DNA from: a virus
Strand: one strand, 5' to 3'
Length of the DNA: 30,901 bases
IMG/VR virus record: IMGVR_UViG_3300037674_000633
Location: 1-30,901 of that record
A program made the translations under genes and the position numbers. The notes below the pieces were generated by a model, which was not told where the DNA came from, ran no database searches, and was given only the letters and a program-made list of their open reading frames with translations. Shown one piece after another: positions 1 to 9,567 of this stretch; the stretch's first letter is position 1; each line of letters starts with the position of its first letter.

Positions 1-540
1 TCAACTGAGACAGAAGGTGCAGAAGTAGAAGTGCGATGGGTTGTAAATGAGAAGCTATTGCTTACACTCGGCTATTCAAACATTAAAGTAACAAATCTAA
101 ACACTCAGGATGATGGATATCGTTTCAGCTTTATAGGCTGTGAAGACTTACCAAGCATTCCTTGTAGTGCACTACTTGGAGGACAGCTCGGGGGGAATGT
201 TTCTGCCGCTCCTAGTAATAGTAGAAGGTCTGGTATGCCAGAAAACATACTATCATTTACAGGTACTTATGACTTCGGAAATGGGTGGACTGTAAACGGT
301 AGCGTAATTGATGTAGAGGAGACTTATTCAGGTTTCTCAAACAGCATTGAGCTACCTTCATACACACTAGTAAACTTAGGGTTCTCATATGAAGCAACTA
401 ACTGGGTATTTAGTGTGAATGGAAAGAATCTAACGGATGAAACGTACTTCCGAGCAAACTTTCCTAACTTGTTTGGTAGTACGATTGTACTTCCAGAACT
501 TCCACGAAGCTATACGGCTAGAATACAGTATAACTTCTAA
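1..540 (+). CDS. TonB-dependent receptor, C-terminal part (partial)
   Basis: The frame is open from base 1, so the gene begins outside the window; the GTG at 31 is only an internal valine. The 179 visible residues look like the end of a TonB-dependent outer-membrane beta-barrel: alternating hydrophobic/aromatic strands, a motif close to NGKNLTDETY shortly before the end, and a terminal YNF in which the last Phe is the usual Bam recognition signal. Such receptors import siderophores, vitamins or glycans using TonB energy. The plug domain and TonB box are not visible, so substrate and intactness cannot be judged. The loop around residues 45-75 has a Cys pair (CEDLPSIPC) that could form an extracellular disulphide. 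A terminator follows directly, and a TorF-like gene lies 69 bases downstream on the same strand. The family call is firm; whether the gene belongs to the phage or to a host is open. Confidence 0.85.
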   Translation, partial: STETEGAEVEVRWVVNEKLLLTLGYSNIKVTNLNTQDDGYRFSFIGCEDLPSIPCSALLGGQLGGNVSAAPSNSRRSGMPENILSFTGTYDFGNGWTVNGSVIDVEETYSGFSNSIELPSYTLVNLGFSYEATNWVFSVNGKNLTDETYFRANFPNLFGSTIVLPELPRSYTARIQYNF

Positions 541-609: not shown

Positions 610-1194
610 ATGAAAAAAGTACTAGTTGCAATACTGTTGCTTCTTCCAACACAGGTTTTTGCTGGTGAGATATTCAGCGGAAATATAGGAGTCTCGTCAG
701 ATTATCTCTGGCGAGGGTACTCTCAAAACAGTGGAAATGTTGCTGTTAGCGGGGGTGTTGGAGCAGATTTAGGTATTTTTACAATGGGTGTATGGGCTTC
801 ACAAGTTGATTTTGATGATGAAGCTAAGTTTGAGTACGACCTGTTTGCAGGTGTGTCTCATAATTTTAATGATAGTTTCGGGGTCAATGCGGGGTATATA
901 AAGTATAAGTGGGATAAGGGATATGATGACGTAGATGAGGCATATATCGGTATGAATATGTGGGATCTAGATGTTACATACTACAAAGATTTAGATAATT
1001 CTGAACTTGATTTTATTCATGCAAATTACTCTATTCCATTCATTGAAAAAGTAGACGTATCATTAGAGTATGGAAAAGCTACAGGATTTGACTCCTATCA
1101 GGCTTTAAATATTTCTAAACAACTTGGGAATTATGTTATAGGAGGACAAATCGGATCGGAAGAAACGAATATAGCACTTTATTATAACTTCTAA
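610..1194 (+). CDS. TorF-family putative porin / outer-membrane beta-barrel
   Basis: The 194-aa protein starts with a clear signal peptide: a Lys pair, a hydrophobic core (VLVAILLLL) and a likely cleavage after VFA, before GEIFSG. The mature part opens with the pattern I associate with the TorF/TIGR02001 family (GNIGVSSDYLWRGYSQ) and continues as short amphipathic beta-strands ending in YNF. The role is inferred to be an outer-membrane barrel of unknown substrate; at about 174 mature residues it is on the short side for the family. The start is set by a very strong ribosome site (GAGGAGGAAGG, 594-604) just upstream of ATG. The gene lies between two matching terminators behind a TonB receptor, and converges on the phage fibre operon. 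No separate promoter is obvious in the 69-base gap, so read-through from upstream or an unrecognised promoter is possible. Confidence 0.8.
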   Translation: MKKVLVAILLLLPTQVFAGEIFSGNIGVSSDYLWRGYSQNSGNVAVSGGVGADLGIFTMGVWASQVDFDDEAKFEYDLFAGVSHNFNDSFGVNAGYIKYKWDKGYDDVDEAYIGMNMWDLDVTYYKDLDNSELDFIHANYSIPFIEKVDVSLEYGKATGFDSYQALNISKQLGNYVIGGQIGSEETNIALYYNF

Positions 1195-1220: not shown

Positions 1221-1514
1221 TTACCATTTTACCTTGTTTGCCCAATAAGCGGCTGACATTTTACCTCTCGCAATATTCTTTGCATGTCTCGCTTTAAAGC
1301 TTTTTCTTTTAGCCTTCATGGCAGCAGACTCCCCTGCTTTTGGTTTTCCTGCGGTCTTTGCCCCTTTTTGCCCAAATCGAATAGTTTTAACTTTATTGCC
1401 CACTTTTGCAACTACTATATGTGACTTCTTCTTATGTCCAGGTGTGCGTCTAGGCTTATTATAGCCTGACACTCTAGCACGCTTTAATCTAGGGTCTCTT
1501 TTCTTTTTGGCCAT
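1221..1514 (-). CDS. Small, very basic conserved phage protein of unknown function
   Basis: This 97-aa protein has about 33 Lys/Arg and only two acidic residues. It ends in a conserved-looking block (KAKRKSFKARHAKNIARGKM followed by SAAYWANKVKW). From memory, close relatives with the same SHIVVAK...KTIRFG...AKTAG core occur in many marine phages, but I cannot name a function. The charge suggests nucleic-acid binding, for example DNA packaging or genome compaction; that is inference only. The start is supported by an AAAGGAGT ribosome site 7-14 bases upstream. It is the last gene of the minus-strand late operon, 16 bases after the 65-aa gene, and abuts the shared terminator. No signal peptide or membrane segment is visible. 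Confidence 0.75.
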   Translation of the reverse strand: MAKKKRDPRLKRARVSGYNKPRRTPGHKKKSHIVVAKVGNKVKTIRFGQKGAKTAGKPKAGESAAMKAKRKSFKARHAKNIARGKMSAAYWANKVKW

Positions 1515-1530
1515 ACTAATACTCCTTTTA

Positions 1531-1728
1531 CTATCTATATAAGAAAGTATTTTTTTCTTCTTCCATATAGCAATTCTTAGTGGGGGAAGTTTCCATTTGC
1601 TTTGCCCAGTCTAACTCTTGAATGAGTCTATTATACCACTTTCTATCGTACTCATTGTTGGGTTTATTCATCTCTTCTTTGAGTTGCCCTATTCTTACAT
1701 CAATGTAGTTCGGTTTTTCTCTTTTCAT
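1531..1728 (-). CDS. Hypothetical 65-aa protein
   Basis: I do not recognise this protein. It is charged (many Glu, Lys and Arg), likely helical in the middle (IGQLKEEMN...WYNRLIQELDWAKQM), and has no signal peptide. Its reality is supported mainly by architecture: its ATG overlaps the TGA stop of the upstream chaperone gene by four bases (ATGA), which is typical of translational coupling, and it is co-directional with the whole operon. It lies between the third fibre chaperone and the basic 97-aa protein. The helical charged pattern would fit a small assembly or regulatory partner, but nothing more specific can be said. Confidence 0.55.
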   Translation of the reverse strand: MKREKPNYIDVRIGQLKEEMNKPNNEYDRKWYNRLIQELDWAKQMETSPTKNCYMEEEKNTFLYR

Positions 1729-2015
1729 AGTGTAGGCTTAGTCTCTGGAAAATCACCGGTGCTAGGCCAGTCACGCAACTTAGTTCTGTACGTCATGTAA
1801 GCTGCATGTTGTGGATGGTCGCTAACGGGCACTATAAAGTCTGTAGTTCTTAACTCTTCATCCCTCCAATCTCTAGCTTCTTGTGCTAGATCCTCTGCCG
1901 TCTTGACATATGGATCACAATGCTCTCTTTTTATTGAAGCATTGCCGTCCTTTATCTCAATCCAATCCCCATTTACAGGAGCTTGGCCTGGATTTGTATG
2001 ATTTATAATTTCCAT
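1725..2015 (-). CDS. Tail fibre assembly chaperone (Phage_tail_APC-like), cassette 3
   Basis: The 96-aa protein carries the signature of the phage tail assembly chaperone family: ARDWRDEELRTTDFIV, then D-P-aa-AAYMTYRTKLRDWPST, then FPETKP at the C-terminus. It is a paralogue of the protein at 5901-6200: ARDWR, TYRT-LRDWPST and FP-TKP are shared, and even the DNA has a 21-base identity (1863-1883 = 6045-6065). Proteins of this type help fold or trimerise the fibre or adhesin encoded just upstream, as Tfa and gpU-like proteins do; that role is inferred by family and position. It follows the adhesin gene by 12 bases with a strong AAGGAGAAG ribosome site and overlaps the next gene by 4 bases. Confidence 0.75.
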   Translation of the reverse strand: MEIINHTNPGQAPVNGDWIEIKDGNASIKREHCDPYVKTAEDLAQEARDWRDEELRTTDFIVPVSDHPQHAAYMTYRTKLRDWPSTGDFPETKPTL

Positions 2016-2027
2016 AATATCTTCTCC

Positions 2028-2675
2028 TTAATTTGGAAATGAGTAGGCAAGAACACCTCCGTACCCCTTTTCTGCGTTGGCGTGGCCTGCTATACTACAC
2101 TTCACTTCAACTTTTAAACTTGTGTCAAATAGATGAGCAGGGAGACCTTGCACAACCATGTCTTGTGCAGACCGTACTACTCCGCCTCCAGGATAAGCAT
2201 CGACTCCCGCATTTTCGTCGTAAAACCTATGAAGGCCATAGCCGCTCACACTTTGATAACGAACGTCATTTGTTTGTCCGTATTCTTTAGCAAAGCCTAG
2301 CCACTTGCGCCTATTATTACTCATAGAGGTTGTTAACGTTTTGAACTCTTCCACAACACCATCTGTTGTAAGTTTAATCGTGTAAAAACCACTTGCCGTA
2401 GTGGCATTCTGAGGAAATATTATAGTTCCCATAGCTCCGTGACTTCCTGTGATATCGACATAAGTATAATAAGTGTCTGCAGTTTTTGAGCCTGTAGTTT
2501 GCCTGTGCCCAAACGTAGAGTCGGCAAAAGAGTTGGTGGTAGACCAAAAAGGCGCCGCATTACACTCTCTTGATGTAGTAGACTCATACAATCTGATACC
2601 ACCTTCATCACCATCACAATACGGCCAATATTTTGGGTGTATTGTAGATACTGCTTGTTTTCCTAATATTGCCAT
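2028..2675 (-). CDS. Putative fibre-tip adhesin, cassette 3
   Basis: This 215-aa protein is not a family I can name, but it is clearly related to the protein at 6210-6869. Shared features are an MAI(F)LG start, a TADT-YT-V-IT stretch near the middle of the N-terminal half, a TDGVV-E motif, and a C-terminal F-x-x-SLKVE segment followed by a glycine-containing strand. The remainder, especially the region before and after residue 120, diverges strongly, as expected of a receptor-binding surface. It sits between a shaft gene (2679-3287) and a chaperone gene (1725-2015), which is the usual place for a tip adhesin. Its ribosome site (GAGGT) lies in the last codons of the shaft gene, so the two are translationally coupled. 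Function is inferred from context and duplication. Confidence 0.65.
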   Translation of the reverse strand: MAILGKQAVSTIHPKYWPYCDGDEGGIRLYESTTSRECNAAPFWSTTNSFADSTFGHRQTTGSKTADTYYTYVDITGSHGAMGTIIFPQNATTASGFYTIKLTTDGVVEEFKTLTTSMSNNRRKWLGFAKEYGQTNDVRYQSVSGYGLHRFYDENAGVDAYPGGGVVRSAQDMVVQGLPAHLFDTSLKVEVKCSIAGHANAEKGYGGVLAYSFPN

Positions 2676-2678
2676 AAT

Positions 2679-3287
2679 TTATACCTCGAACCAGCCGATG
2701 GTGTCATCGACATAGACTAATTGGACTGAATTGCCCTGGGGTAGCGTACCGTCAGCCGCTGCACTATTAATGTTTGAACTGTTTCTTGCTATTGTTACCG
2801 TGGCTGCTCCTGCATTTGCTACAATTACTGTATCACCATCATTACCCCCAGATACACTAGCGGCGGGAAGAGTTACAGTGAAAGCCGTGCTTGCATGATT
2901 ACATATGTACTGGCCTTTAGCTGCCAAGTTTGCAGTTGTAGTAAGAATAGACCAATCACTGTAAGCACCTCCTCCCGCATCAACATAAGCCTTAATGGAT
3001 TCTGAGGATGAAATAGTTGTTGCGCTGGCACCTGACATAGAATCTGAATCTATGAAAGTCTTGCCATCTAACAAGTTAAGTTCTGCAGCAGTAGCATCCA
3101 CCGCAGCTAGTTTTGTTAGGTCAGCTTGAACTAGTCCAGAAACACCATCTAACAAGTTAAGTTCTGCACCCGTTGCCGTTACTACGGTTCCGCCAAGTAC
3201 GATACTACTTCCTGTAAGGTCAAGATTGTCCCCTGAAGGAAGTTCCTTCAATGTTGTATCAACAATTAGTGGAAATCTATTTGCCAT
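2679..3287 (-). CDS. Tail fibre shaft / structural protein, cassette 3
   Basis: The 202-aa protein has an N-terminal half with repeated AELNLLDG units (two copies about 27 codons apart), of a kind common in trimeric fibre shafts of marine phages. The C-terminal half matches the C-terminus of the protein at 6869-7342: GGAYS-W, then ICN-x-x-TAFT-TLP, then GAATVT-ARNS, then QLVYV-x-TIGW. The shared C-terminal block is probably the fold that joins shaft to tip. It precedes the adhesin gene by 3 bases (TAA ATT ATG) and follows a 46-aa gene by one base. Fibre identity is inferred from repeat style and neighbourhood; no enzymatic motif is seen. Confidence 0.7.
   Translation of the reverse strand: MANRFPLIVDTTLKELPSGDNLDLTGSSIVLGGTVVTATGAELNLLDGVSGLVQADLTKLAAVDATAAELNLLDGKTFIDSDSMSGASATTISSSESIKAYVDAGGGAYSDWSILTTTANLAAKGQYICNHASTAFTVTLPAASVSGGNDGDTVIVANAGAATVTIARNSSNINSAAADGTLPQGNSVQLVYVDDTIGWFEV
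3064..3168. repeat. Two exact 24-bp direct repeats within a fibre shaft gene
   Basis: Copies at 3064-3087 and 3145-3168 are identical and 81 bases apart, an exact multiple of three. On the minus strand they encode the duplicated AELNLLDG unit of the shaft protein. Exact in-frame repeats allow shaft lengthening or shortening by recombination without breaking the frame. Confidence 0.9.
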
Positions 3288-3288
3288 G

Positions 3289-3429
3289 TTATGCTACTCC
3301 TATTTCGACTGTTCCTGAGCGAGTCGTTACTATAAAAACCCCTGTGGTTACTTCCACTATTGTATTTGAGGACCTTCCAGTTATAGTTAGTTTACCTGCT
3401 TGTGTTGGTTGTTCTCCTACGAAAGGCAT
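3289..3429 (-). CDS. Small 46-aa protein, fibre region
   Basis: This short gene fills the gap between the cassette-2 chaperone and the cassette-3 shaft. It reads MPFVGEQPTQAGKLTITG... and ends ...RSGTVEIGVA. It has an ATG with a good ribosome site (TTAGGAGAG, 5 bases upstream), and its TAA stop ends one base before the ATG of the shaft gene. The MPF-G start resembles the MPFLGIP start of the cassette-2 shaft protein at 5899. The sequence is Thr/Val-rich and probably beta-structured; it could be a small N-terminal attachment module or fibre decoration. The spacing, ribosome site and lack of any other gene in this stretch argue that it is real, but the function is unknown. Confidence 0.65.
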   Translation of the reverse strand: MPFVGEQPTQAGKLTITGRSSNTIVEVTTGVFIVTTRSGTVEIGVA

Positions 3430-3442
3430 CTTACTCTCCTAA

Positions 3443-3886
3443 TTAAAATAATGCATCTGGTGCATCTGGTAATTTTACAAAATCCGTAGGGAAATTTGCT
3501 TGTTGTGGTACTTCACGTAACGCCTGACGGTAGTCTTTCCACTCATCAGACATTGTTACATCAGACAGTGCCATATGGTCTGTTCTCTGCAATAAGGAAT
3601 CTCTAGTTTTTCTGATCTCTGATGCTGCAACTTCATCTGATAACCTTTCTACAACAAATTTCCGCTTATAAACTCCATCAACTAATTCTGGGTCAGTTTC
3701 TACAATCACTTCACACAAAGTATGGTTAAGTTCTGGTGTTGTTTCTTCAACGTCAAAGATACCGTACTCAGTTTTAGTAGCTGAAGAAAGTTCTTTTGGA
3801 AAGCTCACATTCTTGAAAGCTTTCTTTAATTTATCAATACTGTAGGGGTAGTCATGCACCCCATCTACAATTCTCGTCATTTTCAT
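3443..3886 (-). CDS. Tail fibre assembly chaperone (APC-like), cassette 2
   Basis: The 147-aa protein has a C-terminal half with the chaperone-family pattern: RKTRDSLLQRTDHMALSD, then EWKDYRQALREVPQQ, then NFPTDFVKLPDAPD. The N-terminal 80 residues are unlike those of the two shorter paralogues at 1725 and 5901, and match the fact that its partner adhesin (3889-4782, glycine-rich) is also of a different type. It follows that adhesin by two bases with no clear ribosome site, so it probably depends on translational coupling. The inferred role is folding or trimerising the glycine-rich tip. An ATG two codons downstream is an alternative start. Confidence 0.7.
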   Translation of the reverse strand: MKMTRIVDGVHDYPYSIDKLKKAFKNVSFPKELSSATKTEYGIFDVEETTPELNHTLCEVIVETDPELVDGVYKRKFVVERLSDEVAASEIRKTRDSLLQRTDHMALSDVTMSDEWKDYRQALREVPQQANFPTDFVKLPDAPDALF

Positions 3887-3888
3887 AA

Positions 3889-4782
3889 TTAATTTGCACT
3901 CATATAAAATCGTCCGTCGGTACCTAACGATTGACCAGCACCACCTTGTCCTGCACCGTTTCTGCGAGAGTTACCACTATCTCCAGGAGTTGCATTACTA
4001 CCTGCAGTAGTTACCTCGTTAGTAATATCACTATCAGATGTATCTATGTAGCCACTACCGCCACCGCCACCGCCGACATTACCGCCTCCTCCGCCGAAGT
4101 AGCCACCACCACCGCCACCCATACCAGAATATGTGTACCAATATATCGCAAAACTACCTCCTCCAGTCAACGCCGACCCTGCGACACAGGAATTATACAC
4201 AGAGGCAGCCCCTCCTGCGGATTGTGTTCCTCCATACCCGCTTTGTTGATAGCCGCCAGCATTTCCACCAGAAGCGCCTCCTCCAGCACCAGCACCTGAT
4301 CCATCATAATTAGTATCACCACCGCCACCACCGCCGCCAGCCATTAGCATGGCATTTGCTTGGGTTACGGAAGAAGTCTTAAATAAACCAGTATAACCTG
4401 CACCTTCAGTACCCCAAGATGTGCGAATACCTCCTGCAATATAGGTTGTAGAAGCGGGACCTCCTTGCCAATTTCTCGCGCCCTTTTCACCAACTTGAAT
4501 CGTATAAGTGCCTGCATTTAAAACAACATCAGCAGTAGTATGACCTCCCCCACCTCCTGGACCTCCACCGGCTCCAGCTGAGAGAGTATAAGGATTTCCA
4601 CCAGGCCCGCCGCCTCCCCACATATCTATATTAACTGAAAAAGAGTCTGATACCGTAATTGTCCATTGGCCGTGCCCTAAGTTTAAATCACCATCATCAG
4701 CCATAACCCAATCACTTACACCCCCTACAGAGGGACTAATTGTAAATGCGGCACCGCCCCCACTACTACCGGCAGCACCCAT
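3889..4782 (-). CDS. Glycine-rich tail fibre tip adhesin, cassette 2
   Basis: The protein (297 aa from the ATG at 4782) is dominated by glycine runs, including seven consecutive glycines. These alternate with short variable loops; the run order is roughly GGGGPGG, GGGPGGGGG, AGGGGGGGD, GAGAGGGASGG, GGGGGGYFGGGGG, GGGGGGSG. This pattern is known from the distal adhesin gp38 of T-even-like phages, where glycine-rich strands pack as polyglycine-II helices and the loops bind the receptor. The beta-strand motif GTYTIQVG is typical of glycine-rich domains. I chose the ATG because a GAAAGAG ribosome site precedes it and it lies 19 bases after the shaft stop. A GTG at 4821 would overlap the shaft gene and lacks a ribosome site. 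The receptor is unknown. Confidence 0.75.
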   Translation of the reverse strand: MGAAGSSGGGAAFTISPSVGGVSDWVMADDGDLNLGHGQWTITVSDSFSVNIDMWGGGGPGGNPYTLSAGAGGGPGGGGGHTTADVVLNAGTYTIQVGEKGARNWQGGPASTTYIAGGIRTSWGTEGAGYTGLFKTSSVTQANAMLMAGGGGGGGDTNYDGSGAGAGGGASGGNAGGYQQSGYGGTQSAGGAASVYNSCVAGSALTGGGSFAIYWYTYSGMGGGGGGYFGGGGGNVGGGGGGSGYIDTSDSDITNEVTTAGSNATPGDSGNSRRNGAGQGGAGQSLGTDGRFYMSAN

Positions 4783-4801
4783 AAATACTCTTTCAAATGA
4801 A

Positions 4802-5899
4802 TTAGCCAAGAGCGGTTCCACCTAAGAAACCATAATATGTTGTGCCTCCGTCTCTTGTTAAAAATCCATATGCTTGTACTTCATTATTGCCAGCTGCATC
4901 AGGTGCAGAACCCCCCGCCCAATCCACACTACTCGGCCATGCAAGACTTACGGCTGTAGAATGTTGAGTTAGTATAAGAGTAAAGCTAAACGCTATGCCC
5001 GAGCTTGGAGGATTGCTAAACGCAAACGTAGTTGTACTACTCGCCGCTGTCGCAGAAAAAGAATTGCCTGTTGCTAAGTCACAAGTCATTGTAGTTGCCG
5101 TACTAATATCAACATATGTTTCTTGGTAGGTTAATGGTTTAAGTGACCCTGTCATAGTTACAGAAGTAGTACCTGTAGGTATTTCAAGTACATCAGCATC
5201 TGCATCATTCTTGATTGTTACATCATTAGTACTACCTTGTCCTGTAAGAATTAATCCTTCGGCAGCAGTATAACCAATAGCGGCATCATCCCCTGCAGCT
5301 GTATCACCTGTAGCCTTTAATGTGCTTGCAGTTACAGTAGTAAATGTACCTGCAGCTGCCGAACTGCCTCCAATAATTGCACCATCTACAGTTCCTCCAT
5401 TAATATCAACGGTTAAACTTCCCGCCAGTTGGTCTGAGCCTACTGCATCGTCTGCTATAAGTGCAGAAGTAATTGCATCATCGGCTATCAGAGCACTAGT
5501 AATTGCATCATCGGCTATGGCTGCTGTTACTACTGCATCATCAGCTATTTTTGCAGCTGTTACTGCATCATCTGCGAGCATAGAAGTAGCAATATCACCA
5601 GCACTAATATTACTGACATCAAGACTTGTTACGTCCCCCTCGAAAGCTATAATATAATCAATTACGTCATTACTTGTAAGAGCACTAGCAAATACTATGT
5701 TTGAGCCACTTATTGTATACGCTGCAGTAGGAGCTTGTGTTACACCATTTAAAGAAACTAGTAAAGCTTGTACACTTTTTGGAGTATACGCGGCACTATC
5801 TTTTGTTAAAGCATAAGTAGCCGTAGCTGAAGTAGTAATTGCATCAAGAATTACATTAGTATTTAACTTAGCTCCTGCGGGTATTCCTAAAAATGGCAT
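4802..5899 (-). CDS. Tail fibre shaft protein with ADDA repeats, cassette 2
   Basis: This 365-aa protein begins MPFLGIPAGAKLN. Residues about 30-95 resemble a phage fibre N-terminal domain (SVQALLVSLNGVTQAP...YTISG). Residues about 102-152 hold five tandem decapeptides of the form ADDA(V/I)xxAxI, a repeat style seen in trimeric shafts of marine phage fibres. A middle section (GTFTTVTASTLKATGD...) is reminiscent of fibre beta-repeats. The last 110 residues form another beta-rich domain ending GGTALG. The glycine-rich adhesin follows 19 bases downstream, so this is likely its shaft. It starts one base after the chaperone of cassette 1 ends. No catalytic motif is visible. Confidence 0.75.
   Translation of the reverse strand: MPFLGIPAGAKLNTNVILDAITTSATATYALTKDSAAYTPKSVQALLVSLNGVTQAPTAAYTISGSNIVFASALTSNDVIDYIIAFEGDVTSLDVSNISAGDIATSMLADDAVTAAKIADDAVVTAAIADDAITSALIADDAITSALIADDAVGSDQLAGSLTVDINGGTVDGAIIGGSSAAAGTFTTVTASTLKATGDTAAGDDAAIGYTAAEGLILTGQGSTNDVTIKNDADADVLEIPTGTTSVTMTGSLKPLTYQETYVDISTATTMTCDLATGNSFSATAASSTTTFAFSNPPSSGIAFSFTLILTQHSTAVSLAWPSSVDWAGGSAPDAAGNNEVQAYGFLTRDGGTTYYGFLGGTALG
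5444..5593. repeat. Five tandem 30-bp units in a fibre shaft gene
   Basis: Units begin at 5444, 5474, 5504, 5534 and 5564, each opening with TGCATC(A/G)TC(G/A/T)GC. On the minus strand they encode five decapeptides of the type ADDA(V/I)xxAxI. The second and third units are the most alike. The period is exactly 30 bases with no spacers, and the units are coding, so this is not a CRISPR array. Confidence 0.9.
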
Positions 5900-5900
5900 A

Positions 5901-6200
5901 TTAGCTTCCTAACTCTGGCTTAGTAGCAGGGAAATTACTGGTGCTAGGCCAATCTCTTAAAGCGGTTCTGTAAGTCAAGTATGCGGCACGTTGAGGATGA
6001 TCTGGGGTCTGACTGATCCAATCCGTTCTCGATAACTCTGCATTCCTCCAATCTCTAGCTTCTTGAGCTATTTCTTCATCAGTTGGGGCTACTACAGCGT
6101 AATATAACTTCTCAATTACCGTATTACCATCAATGACTCTTATAAGATCACCATCTACGGGGGTTTGATTAGGAGTTGTTATGTTTTCTATTATTGTCAT
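5901..6200 (-). CDS. Tail fibre assembly chaperone (APC-like), cassette 1
   Basis: The 99-aa protein shows the chaperone-family signature: ARDWRNAELSRTDWIS, then DHPQRAAYLTYRTALRDWPS, then NFPATKPE. It is the closest paralogue of the protein at 1725-2015, with similarity along its full length (also P-x-x-TPVDGD-IRVIDGN against the equivalent APVNGDWIEIKDGN). It follows the adhesin gene 6210-6869 by nine bases, with a GGAGATAA ribosome site, and is one base ahead of the next shaft gene. The inferred role is folding of the tip encoded directly upstream. That chaperones are better conserved than their adhesins fits selection on the adhesin surface. Confidence 0.78.
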   Translation of the reverse strand: MTIIENITTPNQTPVDGDLIRVIDGNTVIEKLYYAVVAPTDEEIAQEARDWRNAELSRTDWISQTPDHPQRAAYLTYRTALRDWPSTSNFPATKPELGS

Positions 6201-6209
6201 TTTATCTCC

Positions 6210-6869
6210 TTAGGATCTTAGAATATAGGTAGCACCGCTCCAAGCCATACCTGCATAGCCACTGCTGGGCCCCGTGTTAGACATTCGCTGCTCTACTTTT
6301 AAACTTTGCTCAAAAGCAATTGTTTTGAATATCTGCGCCGCCTTCAGGGGGTGAATTATTTGCCATGGTAGAGTCTGGTTCATATAATTAAAGACAACAC
6401 CTGGAGTAGTAGTGTTATTATTAATCCATATCGGTTCATCATCAGCTATCAACCAATTCGAGAACCCCCCGTCGTAGGTATGGACATTTGATAGGCCCGG
6501 CCCGTAGATCATTTTAGGGTAACTCGGAGCTTGTGCAGGCATGGTAAGACCAAGTTTTTCATAAACTACTCCATCAACTGTTACTTTTAAATCCCATTCA
6601 GTTCCAGAAGTAAGATTGGTCGGTGAAATAATATTCACGAGATTTCCTTTACCTGATGTAATGTTCACATCAGTATACCAAGTGTCTGCGGTACGATCAT
6701 ATGTGCCATTAACTGCACCATTGTTGCCTATATAAGTCGTCCAATGACTAGCGGTTGTCAGATCTTTATCAGTAGCTTGGTAACGTACCCTCAAGTACTG
6801 TCCACCAGCACACGCTACAAAATAGTCATCTAGAGTTGTCTCTTCTTTTTGCCCTAAAAATATTGCCAT
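6210..6869 (-). CDS. Putative fibre-tip adhesin, cassette 1
   Basis: The 219-aa protein is a divergent paralogue of the one at 2028-2675. They share an MAI-LG start, TADTWYTDVNIT, VDGVVYE-x-LGLT and the C-terminal FEQSLKVE stretch. The central region (about 120-190) is Trp/Asn-rich and unlike its paralogue; it is where a receptor surface would be expected. The gene starts in a TAATG overlap with the upstream shaft gene and is followed by a chaperone gene. Identity as an adhesin is inferred from position and duplication; no known domain was recognised. Confidence 0.65.
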   Translation of the reverse strand: MAIFLGQKEETTLDDYFVACAGGQYLRVRYQATDKDLTTASHWTTYIGNNGAVNGTYDRTADTWYTDVNITSGKGNLVNIISPTNLTSGTEWDLKVTVDGVVYEKLGLTMPAQAPSYPKMIYGPGLSNVHTYDGGFSNWLIADDEPIWINNNTTTPGVVFNYMNQTLPWQIIHPLKAAQIFKTIAFEQSLKVEQRMSNTGPSSGYAGMAWSGATYILRS

Positions 6870-7342
6870 TATGGAAGCTCCTTCCAGCCGATTGTCGAAG
6901 TGACATAAACTAACTGTGTTGAACGGTTTGTAAGCAAAGTAGCATCACTCGCCGTTGAGTTTATGGGTTGACTGTTTCTGGCGACTGTTACTGTTGCTGC
7001 TCCTATATTTGAAATAGTTACTGTTCTACCGACTGTAGTTCCAGAGGGTAGAGTAATTGTGAAGGCTGTAGTTGGGGCGTTACAAATTATCTGGTCACCA
7101 TCGGAGGCCGTGTAGCCATCTGCGTCTTTCACTATCCACGAACTATAAGCTCCGCCTACTTCAGCCCAAGCATTATCGCCTCGTAAAAAAGTTGAGGAGG
7201 AAGCAGTACCGGTTGCTGACAATTCAGCAATACCAACAGCATCATCTGCTAAGTGAGCATTATCAATAGAAGTGTCTACATAATGGTCACTATCAACTGA
7301 ATTCGCTCCTAGGCTATAAACATTAAGTTTTGTAATAGCCAT
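6869..7342 (-). CDS. Tail fibre shaft / structural protein, cassette 1
   Basis: The 157-aa protein has a short N-terminal part with one ADDAVGIAEL unit (the decapeptide that is repeated in 4802-5899) and a linker SSTFLRGDNAWAE. The C-terminal domain matches the C-terminus of 2679-3287: GGAYSSW, IICN-x-x-TTAFTITLP, IGAATVTVARNS, TQLVYV-x-x-TIGWKEL. It has fewer shaft repeats than the cassette-3 homologue, so it is probably a shorter fibre. Both ends are TAATG overlaps with neighbours, which indicates tight translational coupling. Confidence 0.7.
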   Translation of the reverse strand: MAITKLNVYSLGANSVDSDHYVDTSIDNAHLADDAVGIAELSATGTASSSTFLRGDNAWAEVGGAYSSWIVKDADGYTASDGDQIICNAPTTAFTITLPSGTTVGRTVTISNIGAATVTVARNSQPINSTASDATLLTNRSTQLVYVTSTIGWKELP

Positions 7343-7683
7343 TAGGTTATCTCCATAATCCCTAATGTTGCGTCAATCGAATTTGTGGCCCCTGCTTTCA
7401 CCCGTAATTTATCTGAGGTTTCTAAAATATATTTTTGTCCTGCTAACACTTCGAGTGTAGTACGCCCGGGTATGCTTACTGCTTCAAGAAGCCCATAATC
7501 TTCTCCCGTAGTACCATGAGAATTAGCATCTTCCCATTGCACACTAACAGTTACAGCATTTGCTGTCTTATTACAGAGTGCTAAACCAAGAATTACTGTA
7601 GTTACTCCACTACCAACTTCATACATATTCACGTAGCTTGTTCCTACGTTTAGTTCCCCGTGACTTTTAAATGTATTTGCCAT
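7342..7683 (-). CDS. Phage structural protein, small beta-sandwich
   Basis: The 113-aa protein begins MANTFKSHGELNVGTSYVNM and has a strongly beta pattern (TTVILGLALCN...AVTVSVQWED...TLEVLAGQKYILE...LRVKAGATNSIDATLGIMEI). Small proteins of this kind are familiar from marine phage fibre and baseplate regions, where they are annotated as virion structural proteins; I do not know a defined function. It lies between the fibre adaptor gene 7688-7897 and the first shaft gene, with a GGATAAAATT ribosome region and a TAATG overlap downstream. A role as decoration or fibre attachment domain is inference. Confidence 0.6.
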   Translation of the reverse strand: MANTFKSHGELNVGTSYVNMYEVGSGVTTVILGLALCNKTANAVTVSVQWEDANSHGTTGEDYGLLEAVSIPGRTTLEVLAGQKYILETSDKLRVKAGATNSIDATLGIMEIT

Positions 7684-8806: not shown

Positions 8807-9232
8807 TTAGTAAGATCCGCCGTCTAAAGTATCAGAATCTGTAGTGCCTACTACAAGGGGGACCCAGCTGTAGACATTAGAAGAAACTTCTCTGTAGATT
8901 TTAAATTGATTATCGTCTGTATCGTACCATGTATCTCCTTCCGCTAATGTGGAAGTTCCATCTACTGTGGAGCCTGAAGGGGTAGAAGCCCCTCTGAAAT
9001 CTTGGTCTGCTAATTCTTTTAATGCGTCCGCTAAATTATCTGAAGCAATAGTATTATAAGGAACTACAGTTACATTACTTGCAGTAATTTGACCAGGTAC
9101 TTCAAAGGGTATAGCTAATGTATACGCTTGTATTTCAGTAACATCATCGGTAAGAGTAATTGTCAATGTATCACCAGAAGCACTAACTTCTGTAACATTT
9201 TCAGTAACTTCCAAAGTAGTTTGTCCACTCAT
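8807..9232 (-). CDS. Small fibre/baseplate structural protein
   Basis: The 141-aa protein has an N-terminal beta-region (TTLEVTENVTEVSASGDTLT...), then a stretch like a fibre linker (NTIASDNLADALKELADQDF), then STLAEGDTWYDTDDNQFKIYR, a motif frequent in marine phage fibre proteins in which a flat segment states GD-WYDT--N. It ends DTLDGGSY, a tail shared with 7897-8787. Its ATG overlaps the TGA of the upstream gene by four bases. I do not recognise a specific function; position and style suggest a link between the tail tip and the side fibres. Confidence 0.6.
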   Translation of the reverse strand: MSGQTTLEVTENVTEVSASGDTLTITLTDDVTEIQAYTLAIPFEVPGQITASNVTVVPYNTIASDNLADALKELADQDFRGASTPSGSTVDGTSTLAEGDTWYDTDDNQFKIYREVSSNVYSWVPLVVGTTDSDTLDGGSY

Positions 9233-9567
9233 CGAGTTACCTCAGGTGTAAGAGTTACTTCTCCCTGTATTATTCTTTTAACAATAGAATCACTAGACGT
9301 AAAGATTTCTAAGTCGTATACATACTGTCCTGCTGAAATACTGGAAGAAGTTGCTGCAGGTAACTGCAACTTTAAAGCTCCCTCTGATGCATTCGTTATA
9401 GTAACAGTAAAAGAGGCAGAAACAGAGCTTGCATCCACAGATGTTCGCAGCTGTGCCCGACCTGAATAATTGGCCAAATTTAAAGCTGTTCCTGCCTGTT
9501 TAATAATCAAGTCAAGAGCAAAGTCGGAGCCTTGGTCAATTACTAAGTTATATGTTCCTGCACTCAT
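9229..9567 (-). CDS. Fibre/baseplate attachment protein (BppU N-terminal-like)
   Basis: The 112-aa protein has the compact pattern YNLVIDQGSDFALDLIIKQ, then ANYSGRAQLRTSVDAS, then GQYVYDLEIFTSSDSIVKRI, then GEVTLTPEVTR. I recognise this as a small beta-domain widespread in phages, resembling the N-terminal part of baseplate upper proteins (BppU), which anchors receptor-binding proteins to the tail tip. It is the first gene after a consensus promoter and has a GGAG ribosome site 7-10 bases upstream of ATG. As first gene of the fibre operon and just downstream of J, it is a good candidate for the adaptor that fastens the side fibres; this is inference. Confidence 0.68.
   Translation of the reverse strand: MSAGTYNLVIDQGSDFALDLIIKQAGTALNLANYSGRAQLRTSVDASSVSASFTVTITNASEGALKLQLPAATSSSISAGQYVYDLEIFTSSDSIVKRIIQGEVTLTPEVTR

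Follow-up and report, generated by a model that had tools for sequence, protein, structure and literature searches.

The window analysed in this work is an entire 30,901-bp record of a marine bacterial virus (IMG/VR record IMGVR_UViG_3300037674_000633). Its minus strand holds a tail region of the lambda-like siphophage kind, with tail tip, tape-measure-sized and minor tail genes upstream of the fibre genes. Following a conserved gene for a 113-aa protein, nine reading frames at 7342-1725 form three sets, each composed of a shaft, an adhesin and a chaperone; the positions occupied by the sets are referred to here as slots (Table 1). All nine frames are found on the minus strand where the original prediction had placed them, and the ADDA and AELNLLDG repeats that it had read in the shafts are both present. 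The inventory was short by one gene, the small frame for a 46-aa protein that opens set 3. The gap in which this frame lies (3288-3442) was considered as a regulatory or recombination element, a proposal that was abandoned when alignment revealed the coding frame. The 46-aa gene immediately precedes a slot-3-type shaft in 38 of 38 loci. The three sets had also been described with no word on their kinship. Sets 1 and 3 turn out to be paralogues, with 54% identity between the shaft C-termini, 57% between the chaperones and 33% between the N-halves of the adhesins (over residues 1-115), and set 2 is distinct. In the family of the slot-1 adhesin, tips are about 200-240 aa long and have a hypervariable middle at approximately residues 126-168. 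For the slot-2 adhesin, the ATG at about 4782 is the likelier start codon.

Table 1 Genes of the three fibre sets and the gene directly upstream
Feature	Position	Strand	Characteristics
Conserved 113-aa protein, directly upstream of slot 1	7342-7683	-	
Slot-1 shaft, 157 aa	6869-7342	-	Anchor MAITKL, short ADDA region, C-terminal socket domain ending GWKELP
Slot-1 adhesin, 219 aa	6210-6869	-	Plug MAIFLG
Slot-1 chaperone, 99 aa, Phage_tail_APC	5901-6200	-	PF16778 E 3.2e-9, over cut-off
Slot-2 shaft, 365 aa	4802-5899	-	Anchor MPFLG...LDAITTSATATY, ADDA repeats, socket type II (YYGFLGGTALG)
Slot-2 adhesin, glycine-rich	3889-4782	-	phrog_1589 E 7e-6; frame extends to GTG at 4821
Slot-2 chaperone, 147 aa, Phage_tail_APC, longer N-part	3443-3886	-	PF16778 E 2e-15
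Small 46-aa protein, part of slot 3	3289-3429	-	MPFVGEQP...TTRSGTVEIGVA; conserved protein sequence
Slot-3 shaft, 202 aa	2679-3287	-	Anchor MANRFPLIVDT, AELNLLDG repeats, socket ending GWFEV
Slot-3 adhesin, 215 aa	2028-2675	-	Plug MAILG, paralogue of slot-1 adhesin
Slot-3 chaperone, 96 aa, Phage_tail_APC	1725-2015	-	PF16778 E 2.2e-7, over cut-off

The genes are spaced as in an operon, within one cluster on one strand. A promoter-like site with 11/12 matches lies upstream (9615-9587), of a class as frequent in shuffled sequence (19 found, 19.0 expected), and a terminator-like stem lies downstream (1214-1201), of a class that likewise shows no enrichment over shuffles. Phages Mu and P1 carry invertible fibre-chaperone cassettes, in which more than one tip-chaperone pair is encoded together. 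Unlike these Gin/Cin-type systems, the sets in the window all run in one direction, and no inverted repeats of at least 18 nt occur between 1200 and 9700, which argues against an invertase switch.

The genes around the cluster deserve a brief description. A gene for a TonB-dependent receptor enters the window at 1-540 (plus strand) and is complete in the related contigs L004 (7836-10286, minus strand; 816 aa) and L084. It sits between the fibre cassettes and the NrdB/NrdA and phage recombination genes. Relatives were found in 23 viral contigs, and the isolate phage records gave only five weak matches. The nearest bacterial homologues, 70-80% identical, belong mostly to marine gammaproteobacterial MAGs, which suggests the host. 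The phage protein might provide a surface receptor, hide one, or assist uptake. Contig L170 (43,988 bp; G006:C1:14260-14586) has a different TonB-dependent receptor (778-aa frame) downstream of its cassettes, so the receptor at that position also varies. Beside the TonB gene, 610-1194 (plus strand) encodes a 194-aa protein resembling Gcw_chp and outer-membrane barrels, which is also found in L004 and is absent from this place in L037. The receptor and porin-like genes suggested a prophage edge, an idea that we rejected given the phage replication genes nearby in relatives. A very basic 97-aa protein (1221-1514, minus strand; phrog_7595) has at least 597 relatives in viral contigs. Upstream of the fibre sets, 9229-9567 (minus strand) encodes a 112-aa protein that resembles the L-shaped tail-fibre assembly family (phrog_3304, E 9e-21) and weakly BppU_N; it is a candidate platform for the anchors.

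Chaperone pairing and the predicted folds of shaft and adhesin

The three chaperones score 36.9, 56.8 and 31.1 bits against PF16778 (Phage_tail_APC), above the curated cut-off of 26.6, and 14 of 14 aligned relatives match the family as well, in agreement with the type that had been predicted for them. Co-variation was measured by Mantel tests on 76 dereplicated triplets, for which we took the first 50 residues of the shaft, the last 70 residues of the adhesin and the N- and C-parts of the chaperone. The adhesin C-terminus tracks the variable N-part of the chaperone closely (Pearson 0.82) and correlates weakly (0.26) with the C-part, which is conserved in the alignment. The shaft end correlates with the adhesin start (0.46), and the first 50 residues of the shaft show no correlation with any other part (Spearman 0.03-0.07). 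The co-occurrence of adhesin and chaperone that the original prediction proposed as a check is thus borne out, and these results support chaperones dedicated to their own tips, with chaperone activity itself predicted from sequence.

A tip-specific variable N-part joined to a conserved C-part is the trait of Tfa/gp25-like chaperones, and the contrast between the two chaperone correlations displays it here. In gp25 of the myocyanophage Pam3, the variable N-domain holds the tip and the conserved C-domain trimerises (PMC9608196). The order of an adhesin followed by an intermolecular chaperone with this same split is shared with the Pam3 gp24-gp25 pair (PDB 7YPX), whereas Pam3 has one fibre and one chaperone and keeps shaft and tip in a single protein (PMC9608196). 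A sequence relation to a solved Tfa/gp25-like chaperone was not detected: the PDB profile search returned only 2kz6, an uncharacterised protein, and the Phage_tail_APC profile gave no match to the Pam3 gp25 sequence. Chaperones of this family matched one of 50,697 isolate phage records, whereas 99 relatives came from one scan of uncultured viral contigs. Being nearly absent from isolate genomes, the system has offered few opportunities for study.

The AlphaFold monomer of shaft 1 has a pLDDT of 65, rising to about 80 in the socket region, and the shaft matches Pfam Phage_depo_C just below the cut-off. Foldseek matches of the model include the Pa223 spike, the Solidus tailspike, CBA120 TSP4-N, a T4 baseplate chain (5IV5) and the Klebsiella KP1 baseplate; values for 7rej, 5iv5 and 9f4b are E 0.0025-0.023 and TM 0.33-0.40, and the 7rej match fits XD1, not XD2/XD3. 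The socket sequence profile weakly matches the same entry (7REJ, TSP4-N residues 99-165; E 0.034), a stretch that in CBA120 is XD1, the spacer beside the docking domains XD2 and XD3 (PMC8825819). With moderate confidence, the socket-bearing shaft is modelled to contain a T4 gp10/TSP4-like beta-sandwich, and this family relation supports a trimeric structural or docking role for the predicted domain. The monomer of adhesin 1 is modest (pLDDT 65), with a beta core and a disordered variable middle. Its PDB matches, of jelly-roll or TNF-like kind, are weak (best E 0.06), and predicted viral proteins include one clear relative, an uncharacterised protein of an uncultured phage; we therefore assign no fold to this adhesin. 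Single-sequence PDB searches with chaperone 2, shaft 1 and adhesins 2 and 3 returned nothing significant.

Slots, joints and the exchange of sets

The close clade comprises 13 loci with the 113-aa marker, the window included. Across them the shaft N-termini, or anchors, follow a fixed order of slots 1, 2, 3 and an optional 4. Slot 1 is occupied in all 13 loci, as are the small gene and slot 3, with slot 2 present in 8 and slot 4 in 5. Slot 2 is recognised by the motif MPFxG...LDAITTSATATY and slot 3 by MA[DN]R[FY]PL. Matches to the slot-2 anchor occur in Pelagibacter HTVC and Methylophilales Melnitz phages as well. An MPFxG(x)P start is common to proteins of different slots (in the window 3289-3429 and 4802-5899, and the slot-1 shafts of relatives), and is possibly a shared docking peptide.

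Behind these constant anchors, tips and chaperones differ and shift between slots. Chaperones of the class seen in sets 1 and 3 of the window occupy slot 1 in L166, both slots 1 and 4 in L183, and slot 4 in L179. A different class occupies slot 2 in L170 and L184 and slot 4 in L182. L037 shares the downstream TonB gene (97% identity) and the upstream region (86%) with the window, yet has three different sets between them, and in L165 the sets differ although the 113-aa protein is 94% identical. L004 aligns to the window at 98.6% identity over the entire alignment, divergent stretch included: identity is 100% from about 7378 through the first fibre genes and approximately 60% above that point, with the change falling at about 7361-7378, within the last ~38 nt of the 113-aa gene. 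This junction reflects either natural recombination at a module border or a chimeric contig; a third independent contig across it was sought and none was found. Relatives have acquired, lost and exchanged sets, and sets have changed slots, as expected of the modules that had been proposed and not of an inseparable block. The locus is real, modular and multi-fibre.

Shaft ends sort into types I-V, each of which pairs with particular adhesin starts with no crossing; we refer to the two sides of the joint as socket and plug. With rules frozen beforehand and applied to 23 new contigs, type I was followed by a MAxxLG start in 16 of 16 cases. Within type I, a GWF shaft end goes with a MAVLG-type start that has glycine at position 5 (17/17), and a GWK end with a MAIxLG-type start that has glycine at position 6 (24/24). 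The mutual information between GWF/GWK and plug length is 0.81, compared with at most 0.32 in 2000 shuffles, and among 41 new pairs this sub-code held in 15 of 15 (GWF) and 5 of 5 (GWK). When adhesin families were defined without the first 14 residues, homologous tips within one family bear different plugs, each fitting its own shaft; the plug thus follows the socket, not the tip.

In the window, slot 1 combines GWKELP with MAIFLG, slot 2 has a type II joint and slot 3 combines GWFEV with MAILG. Counting recognised joints only, 33 dereplicated loci have two or more; none of their 53 within-genome pairs carries the same label twice, against 8.1 expected, and zero was reached in none of 5000 shuffles. 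A slot-stratified permutation within the close clade gives 0 repeats against 5.1 expected (P = 0.002). The labels were chosen after sequence inspection and the loci are related to each other; coarser labels weaken the exclusion (6 against 12.8 expected, P = 0.01). A label-free test on all joints finds lower similarity within genomes (P = 0.001, last 30 residues), and for type I alone, with 13 pairs, the effect is marginal (P = 0.04 for the last 30 residues, 0.20 for the last 80). The set of new loci contains only 3 with multiple joints, too few to bear on the exclusion. Taken as sequence patterns, joint types are likely to be mutually exclusive within each genome.

A model of the tail tip and the weight of its alternatives

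We assign a probability of roughly 60% to a siphophage tail tip that displays three separate trimeric receptor-binding fibres together, assembled through mutually exclusive joints. The shaft N-terminus would fix each fibre to the tail tip in a slot-specific way, and the extra 46-aa protein probably aids docking in slot 3. The repeat region would act as a spacer and the C-terminal beta-sandwich as the socket, into which the first 5-6 residues of the adhesin would plug, leaving the distal half as the receptor-binding tip. The variable N-part of the chaperone would recognise that tip while the conserved C-part, with the Phage_tail_APC helices, trimerises, and the chaperone would afterwards presumably be released. 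Recombination would swap tips along with their chaperones, and separately the anchors, without parting socket from plug. Where several fibres are made from one operon simultaneously, joints of different types in each phage would direct each tip onto its own shaft. The genes, their family matches, the co-inheritance and swapping of parts, the agreement of socket and plug and the lack of repeated joints are observed; that the fibres assemble as trimers, dock physically and are displayed at the same time, that the chaperone leaves, and that selection acts against mis-pairing, we infer from the sequences. More tentatively, with the odds slightly against it, the short C-terminal motif of the shaft and the first 5-6 adhesin residues may specify partners in marine phages, with selection keeping joints distinct within each genome so that exchangeable tips are assembled at once and unmixed, as a general assembly code in several phage groups.

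The original prediction left open whether the three tips are displayed together or compete for one attachment site. In the latter case, the sets would be alternative tips, with one or a mixture per virion; the locus would diversify host range instead of building a multi-receptor virion. The paralogy of sets 1 and 3 fits such a picture, as does the MPFxG start in slot 1, slot 2 and the small slot-3 protein of relatives, which could bind the same partner. Competition is disfavoured by the three anchor types of the window, whose order relatives keep, by joints that differ within the genome, and by a single-strand cluster free of inverted repeats of 18 nt or more; we consider it improbable. Different anchors in a kept order together with different joints fit simultaneous display at separate places, as far as genes alone can tell. 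The suggested broad or switchable host range may follow from such an arrangement. More improbable by far is an assembly artefact that joined the fibre sets of different phages. The identity jump in L004 could come from a contig chimeric on one side, but a second contig, 99.93% identical over 17683-7273, spans that point and backs the window side, and the three-set layout is repeated in independent contigs such as L037, L170 and L186.

The main rival to joint exclusion is the loss of repeats by recombination, and it belongs to a wider explanation that we regard as unlikely, if less so than competition for one site: socket-plug matching and unrepeated joints would be historical by-products, as adjacent sequences are co-inherited and identical joints recombine, deleting the set between them. 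Socket adjoins plug within tens of bases, so linkage alone could keep the pair together; homology-driven exchange is plausible, as at the identity change in the 113-aa gene; and deletion by recombination would predict the absence of repeated joints. Against this, homologous tips behind different sockets bear the plug of their socket, and joint types change slots yet never repeat in the slot-stratified test, a result that linkage alone does not predict.

Comparison with known systems helps to place the design of separately anchored fibres. Like the branched tailspikes of CBA120 and G7C with their T4 gp10-like XD domains, the locus, as read from its genes, would hold several receptor-binding proteins on one virion by means of trimeric beta-domains (PMC8825819). 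CBA120 spikes, in contrast, branch from one anchored protein, and the docking domains of TSP2 and TSP4 are N-terminal (PMC8825819); in the window the three slots carry an anchor each, the shaft ends C-terminally in the socket, and the first 5-6 residues of the adhesin form the plug. This private anchor type per shaft argues, at the level of sequence, against docking of spikes on one anchored spike. The marine Alteromonas phages V22 and A5 resemble our case in that fibre and cognate chaperone move jointly between unrelated phages, but they have a single fibre, a DUF4376 chaperone, no separate shaft and no multiple slots (PMC7289586, PMC10579305). Metaviromic islands likewise show hypervariable host-recognition genes in marine phage genomes that are otherwise alike; the text on them mentions neither chaperones nor cassettes, and nothing on anchors, joints or the pairing of chaperones was found in it (PMC3909814). 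No description of the joint code was found in the literature searched, which is weak evidence as coverage of subscription papers was thin. Receptor-binding modules with chaperones are already known as a general kind, and the separate-shaft design with its apparent joint code appears to be new.

How multi-receptor phages keep tips on their own stalks while tips recombine freely is an open question of both practical and evolutionary interest. Should the joints prove truly specific, sequence alone would suffice to match tips with shafts and to mark module boundaries in uncultured viruses, and mis-pairing would be directly testable with small purified proteins. Connectors that are never reused would, if this holds true, let viruses trade grips freely without mixing them.
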